This document shows, in pieces, positions 18,550 to 33,078 of a stretch of DNA of 64,000 nt; within the stretch, counting starts at the first letter, position 1, and each line of letters opens with the position of its first letter. The position numbers and the translations under genes are program-made. The notes beneath the pieces are model-generated. The model did not search any database and had not been told where the DNA came from. It worked only from the letters and a program-made list of their open reading frames with translations. Source of the stretch: Apilactobacillus zhangqiuensis (GTDB taxonomy: Bacteria > Bacillota > Bacilli > Lactobacillales > Lactobacillaceae); assembly GCF_019656215.1 (NCBI RefSeq), contig NZ_BPLK01000001.1, positions 62,001-126,000 on the forward strand, in the 5' to 3' direction.

Positions 18550-20478
18550 ATGAGCCAAATCGTAAGTGAAGAAAATATCCAATACGATGCCGGTCAATAC
18601 GACGTTATCGTCGTTGGTGCCGGCCATGCTGGTAGCGAAGCTGCACTTGCTTCTGCCAGAATGGGAAACAAAACAATGTTAATCACAATCAACTTGGACA
18701 TGGTTGCATTCATGCCATGTAATCCATCATTAGGTGGACCTGCCAAGGGTACTGTGGTTAGAGAAATCGATGCACTAGGTGGGGAAATGGGTAGAAATAT
18801 CGATAAGACCTACGTGCAAATGAGAATGCTAAACACTGGTAAGGGACCTGCCGTTCGTGCATTACGTGCGCAAGCCGACAAGCATGCTTACCACCGTGCA
18901 ATGAAGGAAACTATCGAAAAACAACCTAACTTGGATCTAAAACAAGGAATTGTTGATTCACTAATAGTTGAAGACGGTGTCTGCAAGGGTATCGTGACTT
19001 TCACCGGTGCTAAGTACTACTCAAAAACAACTGTTATTTGTGCCGGAACAGCCGCTCGTGGAAGAATCATCATTGGTGAACTAAGATATTCTTCAGGTCC
19101 AAATAACTCACAACCTGCATTGAAACTATCAGAAAACCTAGAAGAATTAGGTTTCGAATTGAAACGTTTCAAGACTGGTACACCTCCACGTGTTAACGGT
19201 CGTACAATTGACTTCTCTAAGACAGAAGAACAACCAGGGGATGAAGAAGTTAACCACTTCAGTTTTGAAACTCCTGATGACAAGTACATTCCAGTGAAGG
19301 ACCAACTATCTTGTTGGTTAACTTACACCAACGAGCACACTCACCAAATCATTCGTGACAACCTAGACCGTGCACCTATGTTTACCGGTGTGATTGAAGG
19401 GGTTGGACCTCGTTACTGTCCATCAATCGAAGATAAAATTGTTCGTTTTGCTGACAAGAACAGACACCAAGTCTTCTTGGAACCTGAAGGTCGCGAAACC
19501 AACGAATACTACTGTGATAGTCTTTCAACTTCTCTTCCGGAAGAAGTACAACAAAAGATGTTACACAGTGTTGCTGGACTAGAACACGCCGAAATGATGA
19601 GACCAGGTTACGCCATTGAATACGATGTCGTAGCACCTTACCAATTAAAGCCAACATTTGAAACTAAGGTTGTTAAGAACCTATACACTGCCGGTCAAAC
19701 TAACGGTACTTCAGGTTACGAAGAAGCCGCTGGACAAGGTCTATATGCCGGAATTAATGCTGCATTACGTGCGCAAGGCAAGGACCCAATGGTTCTAAAA
19801 CGTAACGAAGCATACATTGGTGTGTTAGTTGATGACTTGGTAACTAAGGGAACTAACGAACCTTACCGTTTACTAACTAGTCGTGCCGAATACCGTCTAC
19901 TTCTAAGAAACGATAACGCCGACTTCCGTTTAACTGAAAAGGGGCACGAATTAGGCCTAATCTCAGACGAAAGATACAACAAGTTCTTAGAAAAGAAAGA
20001 AGCAGTTATCAAGGAACTAGACCGTCTAGATCACACTCGTATCAAACCAAGTGATGAAGTAAACGAATTCGTTGAAGCTCATGGTGATAAGCCACTTAAG
20101 GATGGTATCTTGGCATCTGTATTCCTACGTCGTCCATACGTAACTTACAACACATTGTTGAAGTTCATTGAACCAGCTGAAAAGCCATTAGGTCGTCGTG
20201 TGGTAGAACAAGTTGAAATCAGGACTAAGTACGCCGGATACATCAAGAAGGCCGAAGAAAACGTTGCTCGTATGAAGAAGATGGAAGCTAAGAAGATTCC
20301 AGATGACATCGATTATGACGCAATCGACAGTTTAGCTACCGAAGCTCGTCAAAAACTAGAAAAGATTAGACCACGTACTGTGGCTCAAGCTTCTAGAATT
20401 TCAGGAGTTAACCCTTCAGATGTTGCCATTTTAGGTGTTTACATCCAACAAGGTAAAATCGCTAAAATCAAAAAATAG
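18550..20478 (+). CDS. mnmG: tRNA modification enzyme MnmG (GidA)
   Basis: The 642-residue FAD-binding partner of MnmE. The dinucleotide motif is [19 protein letters not shown] (about 22-40), followed by the GidA signatures [16 protein letters not shown] and [18 protein letters not shown], and the C-terminal helical domain that binds MnmE ([14 protein letters not shown]). Length is normal. Start ATG 18550 follows GGAGG. No rsmG/noc/parAB genes follow, unlike Bacillus. Confidence 0.97.
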
Positions 20479-24676: not shown

Positions 24677-25993
24677 ATGGCTCATACTAAGTTAACGCAA
24701 GCTGACTTTGATGCAATGCGCGAACAATATGATAAAGATCCAAAAAACAAGGTATTACAACGTTCCATAATGAAAAACGGGATCAATAATACTGCCAAAG
24801 ATAATCGAGTTGTGGCCAAATTAAACCACACATACTCTGTTGAAATCGATACTGGTAAGGTATCAAATCAAAAACGTTCTGGTCGTTGCTGGCTATTCTC
24901 ATTATTAAACGTTTTAAAACACGATTTTGCGAAACGCTACGACGTAAAAGACTTTGAATTATCTCAAAGTTACCTATTCTTCTGGGATAAGGTCGAACGT
25001 GCTAACATTTTTTACGATCACATTGTCGATACTGCTGATAAGCCTTTCGATGATCGTGAACTTCGCTGCTACTTAGCCGCACCAGGTGCCGATGGTGGTG
25101 AATGGGGCATGGCTGTTGCACTAGTACAAAAGTACGGTGTGATGCCAACTTCTGCCTTTCCTGAAAGTAATGTAACGGAAGATACATCCGATTTAAAGGA
25201 GGTATTGAACCGTAAGTTGCGTCGTGACGCAATGGTATTGCGCGACATGATTCATGCCGGTAAAAGTGATGCCGAAATTGCTGAAAAACGTAAGGAAATG
25301 CTAAAGGAAGTTTACAAAATTGCTGGTTTCGCCTGTGGTGTTCCACGTGAAACATTTACTTTTGAATACCGCGATGACAAGCAAAACTACCATGTCGAAG
25401 AAAACATCACACCTAAACAATTTTTCGATCAATACTTCGAAATCAATTTAGATGATTACGTCGTTTTGGGTAACTATCCCAACCGTAAAATGGAACAATT
25501 ATTCCGTAACAAGGCCGGTCAAAACGTCGTTGGTGGTCGCCAAGTTGAATTCTTAAACATGCCAATGGATGTATTAAAGGATGCTGCAATTGCGCAATTA
25601 AAAGATGGCGAAACTGTCTGGTTTGCCAACACCGTGACCGAACAATCAGATCGTCAAAATGGTCTTTTGGACGACAATTTATACCGACGTGGTGAATTGT
25701 TTGATATCGATATGAACATGGACAAGGCCCAACGTTTGGATTACTACGACAATATTCCTAACCACGCGATGACACTTACTGGGGTCGACATTGTCGACGA
25801 CAAGCCAACTAAGTGGAAGGTCGAAAACTCCTGGGGTGAAAAGGTCGGCGAAAAAGGTTACTTCGTAATGGCTGATAACTGGATGGACAATAACGTCTTC
25901 GAAGTTATCGTTAACAAGAAGTACCTAACCGATTCACAAAGACAACTATTAGAACAAACCCCAGTCGATTTAGACCCTTGGGCAGCGGTATAA
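24677..25993 (+). CDS. pepC: Aminopeptidase C (C1 bleomycin hydrolase family), copy 1
   Basis: The 438-residue cytoplasmic cysteine aminopeptidase removes N-terminal residues from peptides imported by the cell. The catalytic triad is visible: Cys71 in QKRSGRCWLFS, His in NHAMTLTGVD and Asn in KVENSWGEK. Length fits PepC of lactic acid bacteria. Start ATG 24677 follows AGGGGTG. A paralogue follows after 14 bases. A perfect parS consensus lies inside the coding sequence. Confidence 0.93.
   Translation: MAHTKLTQADFDAMREQYDKDPKNKVLQRSIMKNGINNTAKDNRVVAKLNHTYSVEIDTGKVSNQKRSGRCWLFSLLNVLKHDFAKRYDVKDFELSQSYLFFWDKVERANIFYDHIVDTADKPFDDRELRCYLAAPGADGGEWGMAVALVQKYGVMPTSAFPESNVTEDTSDLKEVLNRKLRRDAMVLRDMIHAGKSDAEIAEKRKEMLKEVYKIAGFACGVPRETFTFEYRDDKQNYHVEENITPKQFFDQYFEINLDDYVVLGNYPNRKMEQLFRNKAGQNVVGGRQVEFLNMPMDVLKDAAIAQLKDGETVWFANTVTEQSDRQNGLLDDNLYRRGELFDIDMNMDKAQRLDYYDNIPNHAMTLTGVDIVDDKPTKWKVENSWGEKVGEKGYFVMADNWMDNNVFEVIVNKKYLTDSQRQLLEQTPVDLDPWAAV
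25339..25354 (+). promoter_or_regulatory. parS site 3, full consensus, inside pepC copy 1
   Basis: TGTTCCACGTGAAACA matches TGTTNCACGTGAAACA at every fixed position. Confidence 0.85.
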
Positions 25994-26007: not shown

Positions 26008-27333
26008 ATGACTGAAACAAAAATTACCGAACAAGATCTAAAAGAATTACGTGCGGCCTACGAAGAAAATCCTACCAATGCGATTTTGGAAAGAACCGTA
26101 ACACAAAATGGAATTGGCAATGTTTCATACGATGAAACAGCCACTGAAAAACTAAATCCCATCTTTTCTGTTGAAGTGAAGACTGGTAAGGTGTCAAACC
26201 AAAAACAATCTGGTCGTTGCTGGATGTTTGCACTATTAAATACCTTAAAGCACCAATTTGGCGCTAAGTATAATGTCAAAGATTTCGAACTATCACAAAA
26301 TTATCTATTCTTCTGGGATAAGATTGAACGTGCCAATATCTTTTACGACCGCATCATAAATACTGCGGACAAGCCACTAGACGACCGTACCGTTCAATAC
26401 TTCCTAGAAGTAGGGCCAGGTGCAGATGGTGGTCAATGGGCAATGGCTGTAGCATTAGTTCAAAAATACGGTGTTGTCCCAACCACTGCGTTTAGTGAAA
26501 CTAACGTTTCCGAAAGTACCAGTGATTTGAAATCGATTTTGAATTACAAACTAAGAAACGATGCACTTAAACTACGTAACATGGTAAATGATGGTGTGTC
26601 TGAAGAAGATATCCATGACGCTAGAGAACAAATGCTAGCCGAAGTTTACAAGATTGCTGCGTACTCACTTGGCGTGCCTCCGAAGACTTTTGACTTCGAA
26701 TACAGGGATGATAACGACAATTACCACATCGATCGTGACTTAACCCCTAAGGCATTCTATGAAAAGTACCTATCAGATGCGGACTTAGACGATTACGTGG
26801 TTCTAAGTAACGCTCCTGACAAGGAATACGACAAGATGTATCGTTTATCAGCTCAAGAAAACGTGGTTGATGGTAGAAAGATTGAATTCTTGAACCTACC
26901 AATGGAAGACCTAAAAAATGCCGCAATTGCGCAATTAAAAGACGGTCAAGCCGTTTGGTTTGCTAACGACATTGCACGTCAATCTGACCGCAAAAAAGGC
27001 TTCTTAGCAGAAAATCTATACCATTACGATGAACTTTTTGATGTCGATTTATCAATGAGCAAAAAAGAACGTCTACAATACCATGAAGCTAACGTTTCAC
27101 ATGCCACTGCATTAACCGGTGTCGATTTAGTCGATGACAAACCAACTAAATGGAAAGTGGAAAATTCATGGGGATCAAAGAATGGTGTCAACGGATATTT
27201 CATCATGGATGATGGTTGGATGAACGAATATGTATACGAAATTGTAATAAATAAAAAATATTTATCTAATGATAAAACCGCGCTATTAAGCCAATCTCCG
27301 GTCGAATTAGCCCCTTGGGATTCGTTAGAATAA
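26008..27333 (+). CDS. pepC: Aminopeptidase C (C1 bleomycin hydrolase family), copy 2
   Basis: The 441-residue paralogue of the preceding gene also has Cys71 (QKQSGRCWMFA), His in SHATALTGVD and Asn in KVENSWGSK, so it should be active. The two proteins align along their full length, indicating tandem duplication followed by divergence. Start ATG 26008 follows AAGGAGG. No terminator is seen directly after it, so transcripts may run into the T-box region. Confidence 0.93.
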   Translation: MTETKITEQDLKELRAAYEENPTNAILERTVTQNGIGNVSYDETATEKLNPIFSVEVKTGKVSNQKQSGRCWMFALLNTLKHQFGAKYNVKDFELSQNYLFFWDKIERANIFYDRIINTADKPLDDRTVQYFLEVGPGADGGQWAMAVALVQKYGVVPTTAFSETNVSESTSDLKSILNYKLRNDALKLRNMVNDGVSEEDIHDAREQMLAEVYKIAAYSLGVPPKTFDFEYRDDNDNYHIDRDLTPKAFYEKYLSDADLDDYVVLSNAPDKEYDKMYRLSAQENVVDGRKIEFLNLPMEDLKNAAIAQLKDGQAVWFANDIARQSDRKKGFLAENLYHYDELFDVDLSMSKKERLQYHEANVSHATALTGVDLVDDKPTKWKVENSWGSKNGVNGYFIMDDGWMNEYVYEIVINKKYLSNDKTALLSQSPVELAPWDSLE

Positions 27334-27343
27334 AATTAAAGCA

Positions 27344-27372
27344 TTGCAATTTTTCTGAGAAGGTATTAATAT
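27344..27372 (+). promoter_or_regulatory. Promoter of the arg operon
   Basis: TTGCAA at 27344-27349, a 17-base spacer, TAATAT at 27367-27372, about 20 bases before the first T-box. Confidence 0.65.
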
Positions 27373-27398
27373 AAGTGACAATCAAATAAGACGTTGAA

Positions 27399-27637
27399 CA
27401 GGAATTTTAATTATTGAGTGTTTCACAGGAAACTCACGGTTATGAGAGTGAGTAACACGGTAGTTAAATCGTACCTGAGAGTCATTTTTCGAAATGAGTA
27501 GAAAAAATCGTAGGCGGCGTTAACGCTGAAGTTATTATAACTTCTCGAGCTAGTATTCGTGAGAGTGCTAGGAATTGAGGTGGAACCGCGATTTTATTCG
27601 TCCTCTTGGATATCTTATCCAAGAGGATTTTTTTATA
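27399..27637 (+). promoter_or_regulatory. T-box riboswitch 1 of 3, Arg specifier, transcription-terminating
   Basis: Stem I base CAGG/CCTG flanks a specifier loop containing CGT (27470-27472, Arg), above which lie a 9-bp helix (27406-27414 with 27460-27468) and a distal hairpin. The T-box sequence GAGGTGGAACCGCG lies at 27577-27590. The terminator is TCCTCTTGGAT/ATCCAAGAGGA (27601-27628) plus a T-run. Uncharged tRNA-Arg should favour read-through. Confidence 0.9.
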
Positions 27638-27669
27638 CCCAAAAATAAATATCAATTTTAAAAACAGTG

Positions 27670-27912
27670 ATTAGGAATTTTAGTTAATTCAGTCATTTAC
27701 AGAGAACTTAGCAAAGCCGGGTGAGAGCTAAGGATGACATTAATTAAATCGTACCTATGAGTTTGAATTCGAAATGAGTAGAATTCACCGTTAACGCGTT
27801 ATCGTTAAAGTTTGTATGAACTTTATGAGCTGATGTTCGTGAGAATGTCAGAAACTGAGGTGGAACCACGATTAGTCGTCCTCTAGGATTTATTCCTAGG
27901 GGACTTTTTTAT
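27670..27912 (+). promoter_or_regulatory. T-box riboswitch 2 of 3, Arg specifier, transcription-terminating
   Basis: The same architecture: base helix TAGG/CCTA, specifier CGT at 27750-27752, distal hairpin CTTAGC/GCTAAG with GGTGAGA loop, T-box GAGGTGGAACCACG, and terminator GTCCTCTAGGA/TCCTAGGGGAC followed by TTTTTT near 27911. Confidence 0.9.
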
Positions 27913-27930
27913 ATAAATATTTGCATGATG

Positions 27931-28188
27931 ATCAAGAATTTAATCAAACCAATCATTTACAGAGAAATTAACGTTGATGAGAGTTAATAATGACATTTGA
28001 TTAATCGTACTTGTGAGTGAGCTTCGAAATGAGTAGAAGCAAACGTTGGCGGCGTTAACGCGGAAGTCATTGACTTTATGAGCTAGCATTCGCGAGGGGG
28101 TTAGAAATTGAGGTGGTACCGCGGTTACATCGTCCTCTATAGAAATTAAAATTTCGTTGTTTATATACAAAAAAGGAGGATGTTTCAC
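27931..28188 (+). promoter_or_regulatory. T-box riboswitch 3 of 3, Arg specifier, probably translational
   Basis: Base helix CAAG/CTTG, specifier CGT at 28006-28008, distal hairpin ATTAAC/GTTAAT, T-box GAGGTGGTACCGCGG at 28110-28124. There is no strong terminator with a T-run. Instead CGTCCTC (28131-28137), the 3' half of the antiterminator, can pair with GAGGATG (28176-28182), which contains the argG ribosome binding site. Confidence 0.82.
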
Positions 28189-28196
28189 ATGAAACA
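28181..28196 (+). promoter_or_regulatory. parS-like centromere site 4 over the argG start
   Basis: TGTTTCACATGAAACA, the same one-mismatch variant as sites 1 and 2. It covers the spacer between ribosome binding site and start codon and the first codons of argG. Confidence 0.75.
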
Positions 28197-29490
28197 ATCA
28201 AAGAAAATCGTTTTAGCATATTCCGGAGGATTAGATACATCAGTTTCAATCGCATGGTTGATCGAACAAGGTTTTGACGTAATTGCCTGCTGCATTAATG
28301 TAGGTGAGGATTACGGAGAACACAAAGATTTAAACCAAATTAAAGAAAAAGCATTAAAGGTTGGTGCTATCAAGTCATACGTGGTTGATGCACTAGACGA
28401 ATTCGCAGAAGACTTCCTACTAACGGCATTAGATGCTAACGCAATGTATGAAGGGCAATACCCATTGAGTTCAGCTCTATCTCGTCCTTTAATGAGTCAA
28501 AAGCTAGTTGAAATTGCTCACCAAGAAGGTGCCGAATACATTTGTCACGGATGTACTGGTAAAGGAAACGACCAAGTTCGTTTCGATGTCGCTATCCATT
28601 CTCTAGATCCAAAATTGACAGTGGTTACTCCAGTTCGTCAATGGCACTGGAACAGAGAAGAAGAAATCGAATTTGCTAAGAAACACAACATCGATATTCC
28701 AATTGATTTAGATTCTCCATACTCAATCGACGCCAACATCTGGGGACGTGCTAATGAATGTGGTGTCCTAGAAAATCCATGGAACCAAGCTCCAGAAGAT
28801 GCCTTCGATATTACTAAACCAATCGAAGAAACACCTGACCAACCAGAATTTATGGACATCACCTTTAAACAAGGTAAACCAGTCGCAGTTAACGGCGTTG
28901 AAATGAGCTTCGCAGAAGTTATCAAAAAAGTTAATATCAGTGCCGGTGAACACGGTGTCGGTCGTATCGATCACATCGAAAACCGTTTAGTCGGAATTAA
29001 ATCCAGAGAAGTATACGAATCACCAGGTGCTACCGTATTGCTAAAGGCCCACAAGGCAATGGAAAACCTAACTATGGAAAGAGATTTAGCTCACTTCAAG
29101 CCAATGGTTGAACAACAAATCGCTAACCTTACTTACAACGGTTTATGGTTCTCACCATTGATGAAGTCACTAAAGGCATTTATCCAATCATCACAAGACA
29201 CAGTCAGTGGAACAGTTAAGGTGAAGTTATTCAAGGGTAACGTTTACGTAGTCGCTTCTAAGTCAGATGAATCACTATACGATGAAGACCTAGCTACTTA
29301 CACCGCAGCCGATTCATTCGATCAAAATGCTTCAGTTGGTTTCATCAAACTATGGGGACTACCTACTCAAGTCGCATCACAAGTAAAACAAAAAAACTTA
29401 CAAAAGAACTTCATGAAAGATGTTATGAAGACTAAAACAAAGGAAAAGGTACTAGTTGAAAACAAGTTAGAAGGTGAATCTGATGAGTGA
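28189..29490 (+). CDS. argG: Argininosuccinate synthase
   Basis: ArgG joins citrulline and aspartate using ATP. The 433-residue product has the ATP-pyrophosphatase loop YSGGLDTS (about 11-18), the block [14 protein letters not shown], and [18 protein letters not shown] choose ATG 28189, nine bases after AAAGGAGG; ATG 28180 abuts the binding site. It leads the operon argG-argH-ABC transporter, controlled by three Arg T-boxes. The stop overlaps the argH start by eight bases. Confidence 0.96.
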
Positions 29491-30880
29491 GAAACTATGG
29501 GGAGGTCGTTTTAACGGCGACGCCAACGACTTATTCTTGAGGCTCGGAGCCTCAATCAATGTTGATATCAAAATGGCAAACGAAGACATTGAGGGCTCAA
29601 TTGCCCATGCCACCATGTTAAGCAACGTTGGTATCATTACAGAGGCCGAAAAAGACCAAATCGTAAACGGTCTAAAAGAGATTAAAGAAGAATTCAATGA
29701 AGGAAAACTTCATTTTAGTTACCAAAACGAAGATATTCATATGAATGTTGAAACGGTGCTAACCGAAAAAATCGGTGCTGTCGCTGGAAAGCTACACACC
29801 GCTCGTTCTAGAAATGATCAAGTGGCATTAGACTTTCACTTATACCTAAAGAAACGTCTACCACAAATCATTGCACTGATTAGGAGCTTTCAAAGCGAAT
29901 TGGTCAACCTAGCCGATGAAAATTTAGAAACCATCATGCCAGGATATACCCATTTACAACACGCTCAACCAATCTCACTTGCCCATTACCTAATGGCCTA
30001 CTACGAAATGTTGGACCGTGATGCCGATAGGTTCGAATTTAACCAAAAGCACACCAACATGTCACCAATTGGGGCGGCGGCATTAGCAGGAACCACATTC
30101 CCAATTGATCCACATTTCACCGCCAATGAATTGGGTTTAGATGCACCTTACAACAATTCCATCGATGCTGTATCGGATAGGGATTTTGCAATTGAATTTC
30201 TAAGCAATGCTTCAATTCTAATGATGCACTTATCAAGACTATGCGAAGAAATTTGCTTATGGTCTAGCTACGAATTCAAGTACGTTGAACTATCAGATGC
30301 ATTCAGCACTGGAAGTTCAATCATGCCACAAAAGAAGAATCCTGACATGTGTGAACTAATCAGGGGTAAAACCGGAGTGGTATACGGTCACCTAAATGCT
30401 TTACTAGCAACGATGAAATCATTGCCACTGGCATATAACAAGGATTTACAAGAAGACAAGGCTGGCGTGTTTGATACAGTCGAAAACATCGAACCAATCC
30501 TACAACTAATGACCGAAATGATTGCTACAATGCAGGTCAACAAGGATAAAATGCTACAAGCGGTCGAAAAAGACTACTCAAATGCAACTGAATTAGCTGA
30601 TTACTTATCAGCCAAGGGATTACCATTTAGACAAGCTCACCGTATCGCCGGTGAATTGGTCGCAAAATGCATAAACGAAAATTGCTACTTACAGGATCTA
30701 CCATTAGAACAACTACATAACTATTCAGACTTGTTTGAAGAAGACATATATGAAGATTTGAAACCACACGTCGCAATTCAAAGAAGAAAGAGTTATGGTT
30801 CAACCGGTTTTGATGAAGTCCATAAACAGATTGAAAAAGCGAAAGAAAAACTAAAGGGAGAAATGAATCATGAAGAATAA
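29483..30880 (+). CDS. argH: Argininosuccinate lyase
   Basis: The 465-residue fumarase/aspartase-superfamily lyase splits argininosuccinate into arginine and fumarate. Signatures: [31 protein letters not shown] and [13 protein letters not shown] choose ATG 29483 ([10 protein letters not shown]) with AAGGTG upstream; a GTG at 29474 is in frame but less likely. It overlaps argG by eight bases and the next gene by eleven, so all are translationally coupled. Confidence 0.96.
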
Positions 30881-32360
30881 AATGAAACATTCCGTGTTAA
30901 TTACCATGTTGCTAATGATTGCAACACTATTCGTGACAGCATTCACTGTTCCAAGTGTTCAAGCATCAGCTTCCGATAACTCACTACAACAAATTAAGCA
31001 AAAAGGTTATATCGTAATGGGAACCGCCCCAGATTATCCTCCATACGAATTTATTGGAAAAGATGATGGTGGATCAAAGGTTTACGGTGCCGATATCGAA
31101 TTAGGTAAGGCCATCGCCAAGAACTTAGGAGTAAAATTAAAGGTTAAATCAATGGGATTTGATTCACTATTAGTTGCTCTTCAAACCAAGAAGGTTGACA
31201 TGGTTATTGCAGGGATGAACGAAACTCCTGAAAGAGCCAAGAGTGTCGACTTCAGTAAGACTTACTACTCATCTGGATTGAGTTTGGTATTAAACAGTGC
31301 CGACGATAAGAAAATCAAGTCATACAAGGATCTTCAAGGTAAGACCATCGGTGCTCAAATCGGATCAGTGCAATACGACGCTGTGAAGAAGGGTATCAAG
31401 AACATTAACCTAAAGGGAATGGAAAACATCAACGATTTAATTCTTGCTTTGAAGTCGGGAAAAATCACAGCTATTCCACTAGACACTGCTGTAGCTCAAG
31501 CCTACGCAGCCCACAACCCAGGTCTAAAGATTATTGACGCTAAGATGCCTGGTCAAGAAAGTCAAAACAAGATTGCATTCTTCAAGGGGGCTACTAGCTT
31601 AGAAAACGCTGCTAACAAGACAATTGATAAGGTTAACAAGGATAACCTATACACTAAGAAATTCGTTCCAGCGGCCGCAAAACACATCACTAACAATAAG
31701 TCACAATCACAATTTGAAACAATGTGGCAATACAAGAACTTCTTTATCTCAGGTATCGAATACACAATGATCATCTCAGTGGTATCGGTATTCTTCGGTA
31801 TCATCTTAGGTATTATCTTTGCGCTAATGAGATTAAGTCACAACTGGCTATTGCACTCAATCGCCGTTTGCTACATCGAATTCATTCGTGGAACACCTCA
31901 ATTAGTTCAAATTATGTTCATCTACTTTGGTCTAGGAACTGTCGTTAACGTTCCAGCCTTAACTTCAGGAATTATCGCTATTTCTATTAACTCTGGAGCC
32001 TACGTCGCCGAAATCATTAGAGGGGGAATTAATTCTATCTCTGATGGTCAAAGCGAAGCTGCATTATCACTTGGTCTATCCAAGAAACAATCAATGCAAT
32101 ACATCGTGTTACCACAAGCCTTCAAGAACATCTGGCCTGCACTTGGTAACGAATTAGTAACCTTGATCAAGGATAGTTCACTAGCATCCGTAATTGGGGT
32201 TGGAGAACTAATGTATCAAATGAGAGCAGTCCAAGCTGACACTTACTTGGGTGTCGCACCAATCGCTGTCATTATGGTCATTTACTTCGTAATCACATTT
32301 ACAATTTCTAGAATTATGAAACACTTAGAAGGGAAGATTAGCCATGGAACCAATGATTAA
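30870..32360 (+). CDS. Amino-acid ABC transporter, substrate-binding/permease fusion
   Basis: The 496-residue protein combines a signal peptide (1-33, near VQASAS), a periplasmic-type SBP_bac_3 domain (about 38-270, [13 protein letters not shown]) and a HisM-type permease domain (about 285-490) with the EAA loop [20 protein letters not shown]. Such fusions are common in lactic acid bacteria for polar amino acids. Its place behind argGH under Arg T-boxes suggests an importer of arginine or of a precursor such as citrulline; that is inference. Start ATG 30870 has AAAGGGAG upstream. Confidence 0.88.
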
Positions 32361-33078
32361 AATTGAAAATTTAACTAAAAAATTCAAAAATAATACCATC
32401 TTTTCTGACATCAATGCTGAAGTCCACAAGGGCGAAGTAATCTCACTTTTAGGTCCTTCTGGTGCCGGTAAGAGTACTTTCCTTCGTTGCATTAACATGC
32501 TAGGTGAACCAACTTCTGGAAAGATTCTATTGGATGGTAAAGACCTAGTAAGTAGTTCTGAAAAGGAACTAATTCAATTAAGAACCCACATCGGAATGGT
32601 GTTCCAAAGCTTTAACTTGTTTGAAAACAAGACAGTTATCGATAACATCACACTAGCACCCATCAAGGTTAAGAGTATGAGTAAGGAAGACGCTGAAGTA
32701 AAGGCACACGAATTACTTAAGACCGTTGGCCTAGATGACAAGGCAAACGTTTACCCAGACAGCCTATCAGGTGGACAAGCACAACGTATCGCAATCGTAC
32801 GTGCGCTAGCCATGGATCCTGAAGTAATCCTATTCGATGAACCAACTTCAGCATTGGACCCTGAAAAAGTCGGTGAAGTACTAAGCGTTATGCAAGACTT
32901 AGCTAAGAAGGACATGACCATGATTATCGTTACTCATGAAATGGAATTCGCTAAAAATGTTTCAGATGAAATTTGGTTTATGGATGACGGAAAGATTCAA
33001 GAAAAACAAGCTCCACAAGACTTCTTCGCAAATCCCCAAACCCCTAACGCCCAACGTTTTTTAAGCAAAATGATTTAA
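32344..33078 (+). CDS. Amino-acid ABC transporter ATP-binding protein
   Basis: The 244-residue ATPase has Walker A GPSGAGKST, signature LSGGQAQRIAIVRAL and Walker B VILFDEPTSALDPE, followed by the switch His in VTHEM. It energises the fusion permease encoded directly upstream, which it overlaps by 17 bases. It is the last gene of the arg operon; a terminator follows. Confidence 0.93.
   Translation: MEPMIKIENLTKKFKNNTIFSDINAEVHKGEVISLLGPSGAGKSTFLRCINMLGEPTSGKILLDGKDLVSSSEKELIQLRTHIGMVFQSFNLFENKTVIDNITLAPIKVKSMSKEDAEVKAHELLKTVGLDDKANVYPDSLSGGQAQRIAIVRALAMDPEVILFDEPTSALDPEKVGEVLSVMQDLAKKDMTMIIVTHEMEFAKNVSDEIWFMDDGKIQEKQAPQDFFANPQTPNAQRFLSKMI

Follow-up and report, generated by a model that had tools for sequence, protein, structure and literature searches.

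A leader that reads the same tRNA three times raises the question of whether one decision is repeated or whether the copies act at different levels. Such a leader lies in Apilactobacillus zhangqiuensis, a member of a bee-associated genus of lactic acid bacteria, where a sequence-only reading had placed three full T-box units upstream of argG–argH and an ABC importer. In the 64-kb window (the whole 64,000-nucleotide stretch of DNA that was analyzed), cmscan at gathering scores gave exactly three matches to the Rfam T-box model RF00230, all on the plus strand and each above the gathering score of 93 bits (Table 1), which bears out the three units. With the expression platform of copy 3 counted in, the array ends at about position 28181. 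The Rfam alignments also confirm the CGT specifiers and co-varying helices that had been read by eye: each of the three significant matches carries CGU, and no other codon, in its specifier loop, followed by A and by helix strands CAGG/CCUG, UAGG/CCUA, and CAAG/CUUG in copies 1, 2, and 3, respectively. A specifier frame of ACC (Thr) was ruled out, since its CC sits in the helix below the specifier loop, which differs between copies yet pairs in each. A motif script returned CGU in 46 of 46 copies from 17 genomes.

The source genome contains tRNA-Arg genes with the anticodons ACG, CCG, and UCU (ARAGORN, which was given 19 of 30 tRNA loci; 3 of 40 tRNA matches lay outside the scanned stretches). 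A cognate tRNA for CGU therefore exists, in line with the earlier expectation of a tRNA-Arg with an ACG- or GCG-type anticodon. A possible promoter upstream of the array is tentative, because a consensus scan did not report it. That scan gave two sigma-70 matches (one per strand) against 3.1 expected and none ahead of copy 1, leaving internal promoters unsupported.

The genes downstream are as had been proposed, argG and argH both scoring above their NCBIfam cut-offs and being followed by importer genes of the polar/basic amino-acid type, for which one general permease-domain cut-off was passed and, among the matches listed, no cut-off of a specific equivalog. The argG start codon lies in a palindrome, TGTTTCACATGAAACA, that resembles the parS consensus (the ParB/Spo0J site). 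With up to two mismatches, seven such sites occur in the genome, all of them within the 51.5–178.8 kb stretch of contig C1, compared to none for a reversed control. In 14 of 16 genus genomes (G009 and G015 are the exceptions) the array is directly followed by a site with 0–2 mismatches. A second parS-like site in the window, TGTTCCACGTGAAACA, is found at 25339–25354 on the plus strand. Together with an mnmG/gidA-like gene (18550–20478, identified by reading), the parS-like site suggests that the window lies near the replication origin. Just before the array are two adjacent, similar PepC-type peptidase-like genes (24677–25993 and 26008–27333, by reading), the second of which matched no NCBIfam family at E 0.001.

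Table 1. Features of the T-box array and of the operon behind it (positions in the window)
Feature	Position	Strand	Basis and details
Possible promoter	27344-27372	+	TTGCAA, 17 nt, TAATAT; weak, by eye
T-box copy 1	27385-27608	+	RF00230 94.4 bits, E 2.1e-19; specifier CGU 27470-27472; bulge UGGA 27581-27584
Intrinsic terminator, copy 1	27600-27634	+	13-bp stem, U run; terminator scan
T-box copy 2	27658-27886	+	RF00230 98.0 bits, E 2.5e-20; specifier CGU 27750-27752; bulge UGGA 27861-27864
Intrinsic terminator, copy 2	27878-27910	+	11-bp stem, U run; terminator scan
T-box copy 3	27919-28140	+	RF00230 95.7 bits, E 9.5e-20; specifier CGU 28006-28008; bulge UGGU 28114-28117
Copy 3 antiterminator (anti-sequestrator)	28110-28137	+	helix A1 GAGG 28110-28113/CCUC 28134-28137; A2 GCGGU/AUCGU inside; Rfam alignment, constrained fold
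Copy 3 proposed sequestrator	28132-28181	+	GUCCUCU 28132-28138 with GGAGGAU 28175-28181; RNAfold, terminator scans, 16 genomes
parS-like palindrome	28181-28196	+	TGTTTCACATGAAACA; pattern search, 1 mismatch; small RNA hairpin predicted
argG, argininosuccinate synthase	28189-29490	+	NCBIfam TIGR00032, 530.1 bits, cut-off 268.2
argH, argininosuccinate lyase	29483-30880	+	NCBIfam TIGR00838, 625.6 bits, cut-off 279.5; start overlaps argG stop (ATGAGTGA)
ABC importer, substrate-binding domain fused to permease	30870-32360	+	TIGR01726 above cut-off; 11-nt overlap with argH
ABC importer ATPase	32344-33078	+	GlnQ/ArtP-like, below cut-offs among the best 25 of 190 families; 17-nt overlap with fusion gene

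The three aptamers differ in what follows them, each having its own expression platform: a terminator, a terminator, and a predicted Shine-Dalgarno (SD) sequestrator. In copies 1 and 2, terminator and antiterminator form a mutually exclusive pair (terminator scan and folds), and the two terminators are found at the same positions, by reading, in all eight argG-bearing genomes of the genus. Transcriptional control of these copies by uncharged tRNA is strongly supported by T-box homology. No terminator was found after copy 3 in a scan of 27300–28300, which returned only the terminators of copies 1 and 2 and a short hairpin inside copy 1 (27515–27528). Among the 26 T-boxes of the genome, copy 3 has the weakest hairpin plus U run (−7.3 kcal/mol), next to that of a T-box read as belonging to alaS (−7.9 kcal/mol); the other 24 score −17.0 kcal/mol or lower. 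The idea that arginine shortage is sensed three times in series thus holds as regards the series, the CGU specifiers, and the cognate tRNA, and is not supported as regards three equal attenuators.

In place of a terminator arm, the 3′ strand of copy 3 is predicted to find its partner in the GGAGGAU that covers the argG Shine-Dalgarno sequence, with which GUCCUCU can form seven base pairs, and this partner is followed by GTTTCACATG, not by U's. The proposed sequestrator and antiterminator helix A1 are mutually exclusive because both use the same CCUC. In the fold, the per-base probability of being unpaired is 0.05–0.30 for the GGAGG of the Shine-Dalgarno sequence and 0.17–0.82 when the T-box strand is absent. 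The duplex of 3′ strand and SD region reaches −9.6 kcal/mol with 7 bp in all seven genomes of a clade without the last terminator, compared to −4.2 to −7.5 kcal/mol in the other nine, where the stretch used (+25 to +75) may include the end of a terminator arm. Over 24 leaders of the source genome, the same duplex is strongest at copy 3 (−9.5 kcal/mol; the other 23 range from −8.3 to −2.7 kcal/mol, and copies 1 and 2 of the window, with no gene directly downstream, are left out), the valS leader (by reading) being not far from it at −8.3 kcal/mol. It is important to note that complementarity between a T-box 3′ strand (UCCUC) and a Shine-Dalgarno sequence (GGAGG) is inherent to both. Both sides of the sequestrator are invariant within the clade of seven genomes, so covariation cannot speak for or against the pairing.

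The balance between the two states of copy 3 was compared to that of copies with terminators, all energies being predictions for RNA without tRNA, ribosome, or co-transcriptional folding. In equal windows (−8 to +95; G013 included), the minimum free energy minus that of the ON state is −3.4 to −6.4 in the seven genomes and −7.8 to −14.9 in 37 terminator copies. With a longer window the values are −4.7 to −8.4 versus −7.8 to −15.2, and the ranges touch. A looser comparison over 42 copies gave OFF/ON gaps of −1.6 to −2.5 in the seven versus −3.2 to −10.8, with unequal windows and a looser ON state that made copy 3 look nearer to bistable, and with G013, whose motif differs, left out. In the constrained fold, copy 3 of the window has an OFF/ON gap of −6.0 kcal/mol. 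The predicted gap is therefore smaller than in terminator copies, yet not near zero, and its size is not robust to the way it is calculated.

The distribution of the array shows with which function it travels. The nearest named relatives by ArgG belong to Apilactobacillus (including A. kunkeei, A. nanyangensis, and A. waqarii), at 86–98% identity. A T-box array is present in all 16 genus genomes, with three copies in 12 and two in 4; the importer likewise occurs in 16 of 16, and argG in 8 of 16. In the eight argG-bearing genomes the array precedes argG (motif count, with Rfam on two of these). In the eight genomes where no argG was found it precedes the importer, whose start lies within about 200 nt. 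The array thus goes with arginine uptake, argGH being an optional part, and argG as the reason for the array was rejected on the same evidence. In one genome (G003, locus L187), the third T-box is followed by AAAGGAGGGTGTGTTTCACATGAAACAATC, which resembles the argG start of sister species and is possibly a trace of a lost argGH; no argG was found there. The argG match of another locus (L070, genome G014) has one TAG inside. Beyond Apilactobacillus, RF00230 at E 0.01 was run on the regions ahead of argG in 40 genomes of 16 genera, drawn from the 238 argG-matching genomes among 397 of the family; three of these regions were shortened by contig ends. A T-box stood on the argG strand in one of them (G050, two copies) and on the opposite strand in four.

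A maximum-likelihood tree built from the 46 copies of the 17 genomes groups them by position: copies 1 at 94/81, copies 2 of triple arrays at 95/92, and copies 3 at 98/93. This grouping indicates that the tandem predates the divergence of the species compared, and a recent local duplication was rejected since each copy clusters with its positional counterparts. In the four double arrays, the second copy is placed next to copies 3 with weaker support (91/77), and these arrays may have lost the middle unit. By reading, the terminator after the last copy is gone in 7 of the 16 genus genomes and present in 9, namely in L072 (ArgG 86% identical) and in the eight argG-less genomes, where it is clear. 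Within the copies 3 that have a terminator, the seven without one make up a single clade (97/97), which argues that the terminator was lost once and that this state was then kept. Since these genomes are closely related (96–98% ArgG identity for the other six), they count as one evolutionary event rather than seven. Mean pairwise divergence over eight loci is 3.0% for copy 3, 3.8% for copy 1, 2.4% for copy 2, and 16.1% for four-fold sites of argG; two of the loci, L077 (A. waqarii) and L070, appear identical in the stretches compared. Copy 3 is thus conserved about as well as copies 1 and 2, making it unlikely that it is a relic.

The loss of the terminator coincides with a change in the bulge that reads the tRNA acceptor end. 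UGG is present in the bulge of all three copies in the window, and the following base pairs with A73 of tRNA-Arg in copy 3 (U) and not in copies 1 and 2 (A). All three tRNA-Arg genes of the source genome (ACG, CCG, and UCU) have A73 and no encoded CCA. For tRNA-Arg(ACG), A73 was found in all 24 genus loci and in the source genome, together 14 of 16 genomes, with no such gene found in G011 or G012. The variable position of UGGN pairs with the tRNA in the majority of cases, according to the part of the T-box database paper available (PMC7778990). Over the 46 copies analyzed here it is C in 28, A in 9, and U in 9, most of which mismatch A73. Copy 3 has U in all seven genomes of the terminator-less clade and C in the other five copies 3, where U pairs with A73 and C does not. 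Within the source genome, the argS T-box has UGGU (specifier CGC, by reading), and UGGA is found, by reading, before thrS and glycine genes, U73 being the base of tRNA-Thr(GGU) and tRNA-Gly(GCC). Copies 1 and 2 thus carry a base that fits other tRNAs, and one guess is that their mismatch makes for a weaker response with a higher threshold.

Based on these data, a simple model would be a hybrid array, in which two irreversible transcriptional checkpoints are followed by one reversible translational checkpoint; we consider this reading probable, the platform switch of copy 3 being the inferred element. Its chief competitor would make copy 3 inert or decaying, such that tRNA binding has no effect, the SD pairing is incidental, and the leader works as a double transcriptional attenuator. 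The complementarity to Shine-Dalgarno sequences is indeed intrinsic to T-boxes, the loss of a terminator is a simple degenerative change, and stem III of the window's copy 3 differs from that of its relatives, the Rfam alignment marking non-standard pairs. Against this, copy 3 scores like copies 1 and 2 with Rfam, is conserved about as well as they are and five times more than the four-fold sites of argG, and has its stronger SD match and its UGGU bulge in the same seven genomes that lack the terminator. An inert copy 3 is on these grounds unlikely, though not negligibly so.

A steep response from three serial transcriptional attenuators, the last with a weak, unusual, or protein-aided terminator, would suit the habit of the genome, since transcription is the default (a strong terminator-like hairpin occurs at 24 of 26 T-boxes) and the last copy keeps a terminator in 9 of 16 genomes. 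The absence of any terminator-like site found after copy 3, and a fold in which the partner of its 3′ strand is the Shine-Dalgarno sequence followed by GTTTCACATG instead of U's, make this reading improbable. Conservation without a terminator could also be accounted for if copy 3 served mainly for timing or buffering, as a tRNA-binding spacer whose role is to protect or stabilize the mRNA, or to titrate uncharged tRNA, instead of SD control. Such a role would not predict the better SD match in seven of seven genomes, and we regard it as very improbable. Translational control by copy 3, modeled as above, is the most likely function.

In the hybrid array, uncharged tRNA-Arg(ACG) would bind copies 1 and 2 during transcription; otherwise, polymerase would stop at either terminator. 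On mRNAs that pass both, charged tRNA or no tRNA at copy 3 would leave GUCCUCU free to pair with the argG Shine-Dalgarno GGAGGAU, and uncharged tRNA-Arg would hold the 3′ strand in the GAGG/CCUC anti-sequestrator helix. Copy 3 would in this way set translation of argG, and, with argG, argH, and the importer genes each overlapping the next, translational coupling could carry the effect further along the operon. Copy 3 could be read again during the life of the mRNA, such that argG translation could go off once arginine returns. Arginine would hence be checked twice irreversibly during transcription and a third time, reversibly, on the completed message. RNA-seq data for A. kunkeei exist (GSE205998, named in the accessible part of PMC12121620; source paper PMC10496945).

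The units themselves are ordinary T-boxes, and triple arrays before amino-acid importers and translational T-boxes are both already known. A 2025 survey, as far as its accessible part goes, describes tandem arrays of Bacillota that likewise place two or three full T-boxes before amino-acid genes or an ABC importer, with three-T-box arrays in part of the contiguous cases for thrS, trp, ilv, and artQ-glnQ-artP type genes and in 6% of contiguous cases for artP and glnQ (PMC12452182, Table 2). The earlier description of triple arrays as rare is thus apt in the sense of uncommon and does not hold in the sense of exceptional. Its example, a triple array at thrZ of Bacillus subtilis, is consistent with the part of another paper available, which reports two or three T-boxes before thrZ and trpE (PMC2494555). 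According to the survey, the second riboswitch of a tandem may in general act on transcription or translation, and its T-box cases, in the part available, are accounted for by terminators. Its main text contains neither "translational T-box" nor "argG" (PMC12452182), and that of PMC2494555 none of the words arginine, argG, or tandem. A few tandem T-boxes precede histidine transporters, with no mixed mode in the accessible part of that paper (PMC9413887). No arginine or mixed-mode tandem T-box was found in the titles and abstract openings of the open-licence literature.

Translational T-boxes, as covered in the available sections of a review (PMC7583486), occur mostly in Actinobacteria, are bistable and reversible where transcriptional ones act once (section 6.1), and mostly have a short Stem I, a few keeping a long one (section 6.2). 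Copy 3 would share their discriminator logic, by which a strand freed from the antiterminator sequesters the Shine-Dalgarno sequence when the tRNA is charged. Unlike most of them, it has a full-length Stem I (model positions 1–219 matched) rather than the short or ultrashort form that is usual, though not strictly defining, for translational T-boxes, stands last of three, and belongs to a lactic acid bacterium, and in contrast to them it has sister-species orthologues that still carry a terminator. The AND gate of a T-box and a ppGpp riboswitch (Sherlock et al. 2018, cited in the same review, PMC7583486) also sets two switches in series on one mRNA. That tandem reads two signals, whereas here one signal would be read at two levels of expression.

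Control at both levels within one T-box leader seems to have evolved once more in a different genus of the family. In three loci on the minus strand (L197, L198, and L199, in genomes G245, G214, and G176), the leader of a brnQ-like gene, identified by reading, combines a single T-box Stem I with two discriminators, of which only the first has a terminator. The second 3′ strand is predicted to pair with the Shine-Dalgarno sequence (−8.8 kcal/mol). The first discriminator can be looped out by a helix of 13 bp, which in G176 contains one mismatch. A pattern search found this type of leader in 3 of 397 family genomes. Among the pattern matches listed, G187, G352, and G280 were rejected as translational T-boxes, having terminators on reading. 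Two minus-strand loci, L201 (G352) and L202 (G280), have two discriminators about 100 nt apart, each with a terminator by reading, and are partially tandem T-boxes.

Taken as a whole, the evidence tilts moderately toward a mixed-mode tandem T-box of two transcriptional units and one translational unit for the same tRNA. A single terminator-to-sequestrator conversion would have produced it, and the clade concerned would also have gained a bulge base that fits the tRNA, a longer SD match, and a narrower energy gap; the brnQ leader of another genus of the family would mark an apparent second origin. If the reading of the brnQ leader is true, mixed T-box control arose at least twice in the family. 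Because T-box 3′ strands resemble anti-SD sequences, a translational switch could already be in place, to be exposed once a terminator is lost. Sister-species arrays with and without the last terminator would make the effect of one change from transcription to translation measurable on otherwise similar leaders and, if the conversion is real, would show how a riboswitch changes its level of control.
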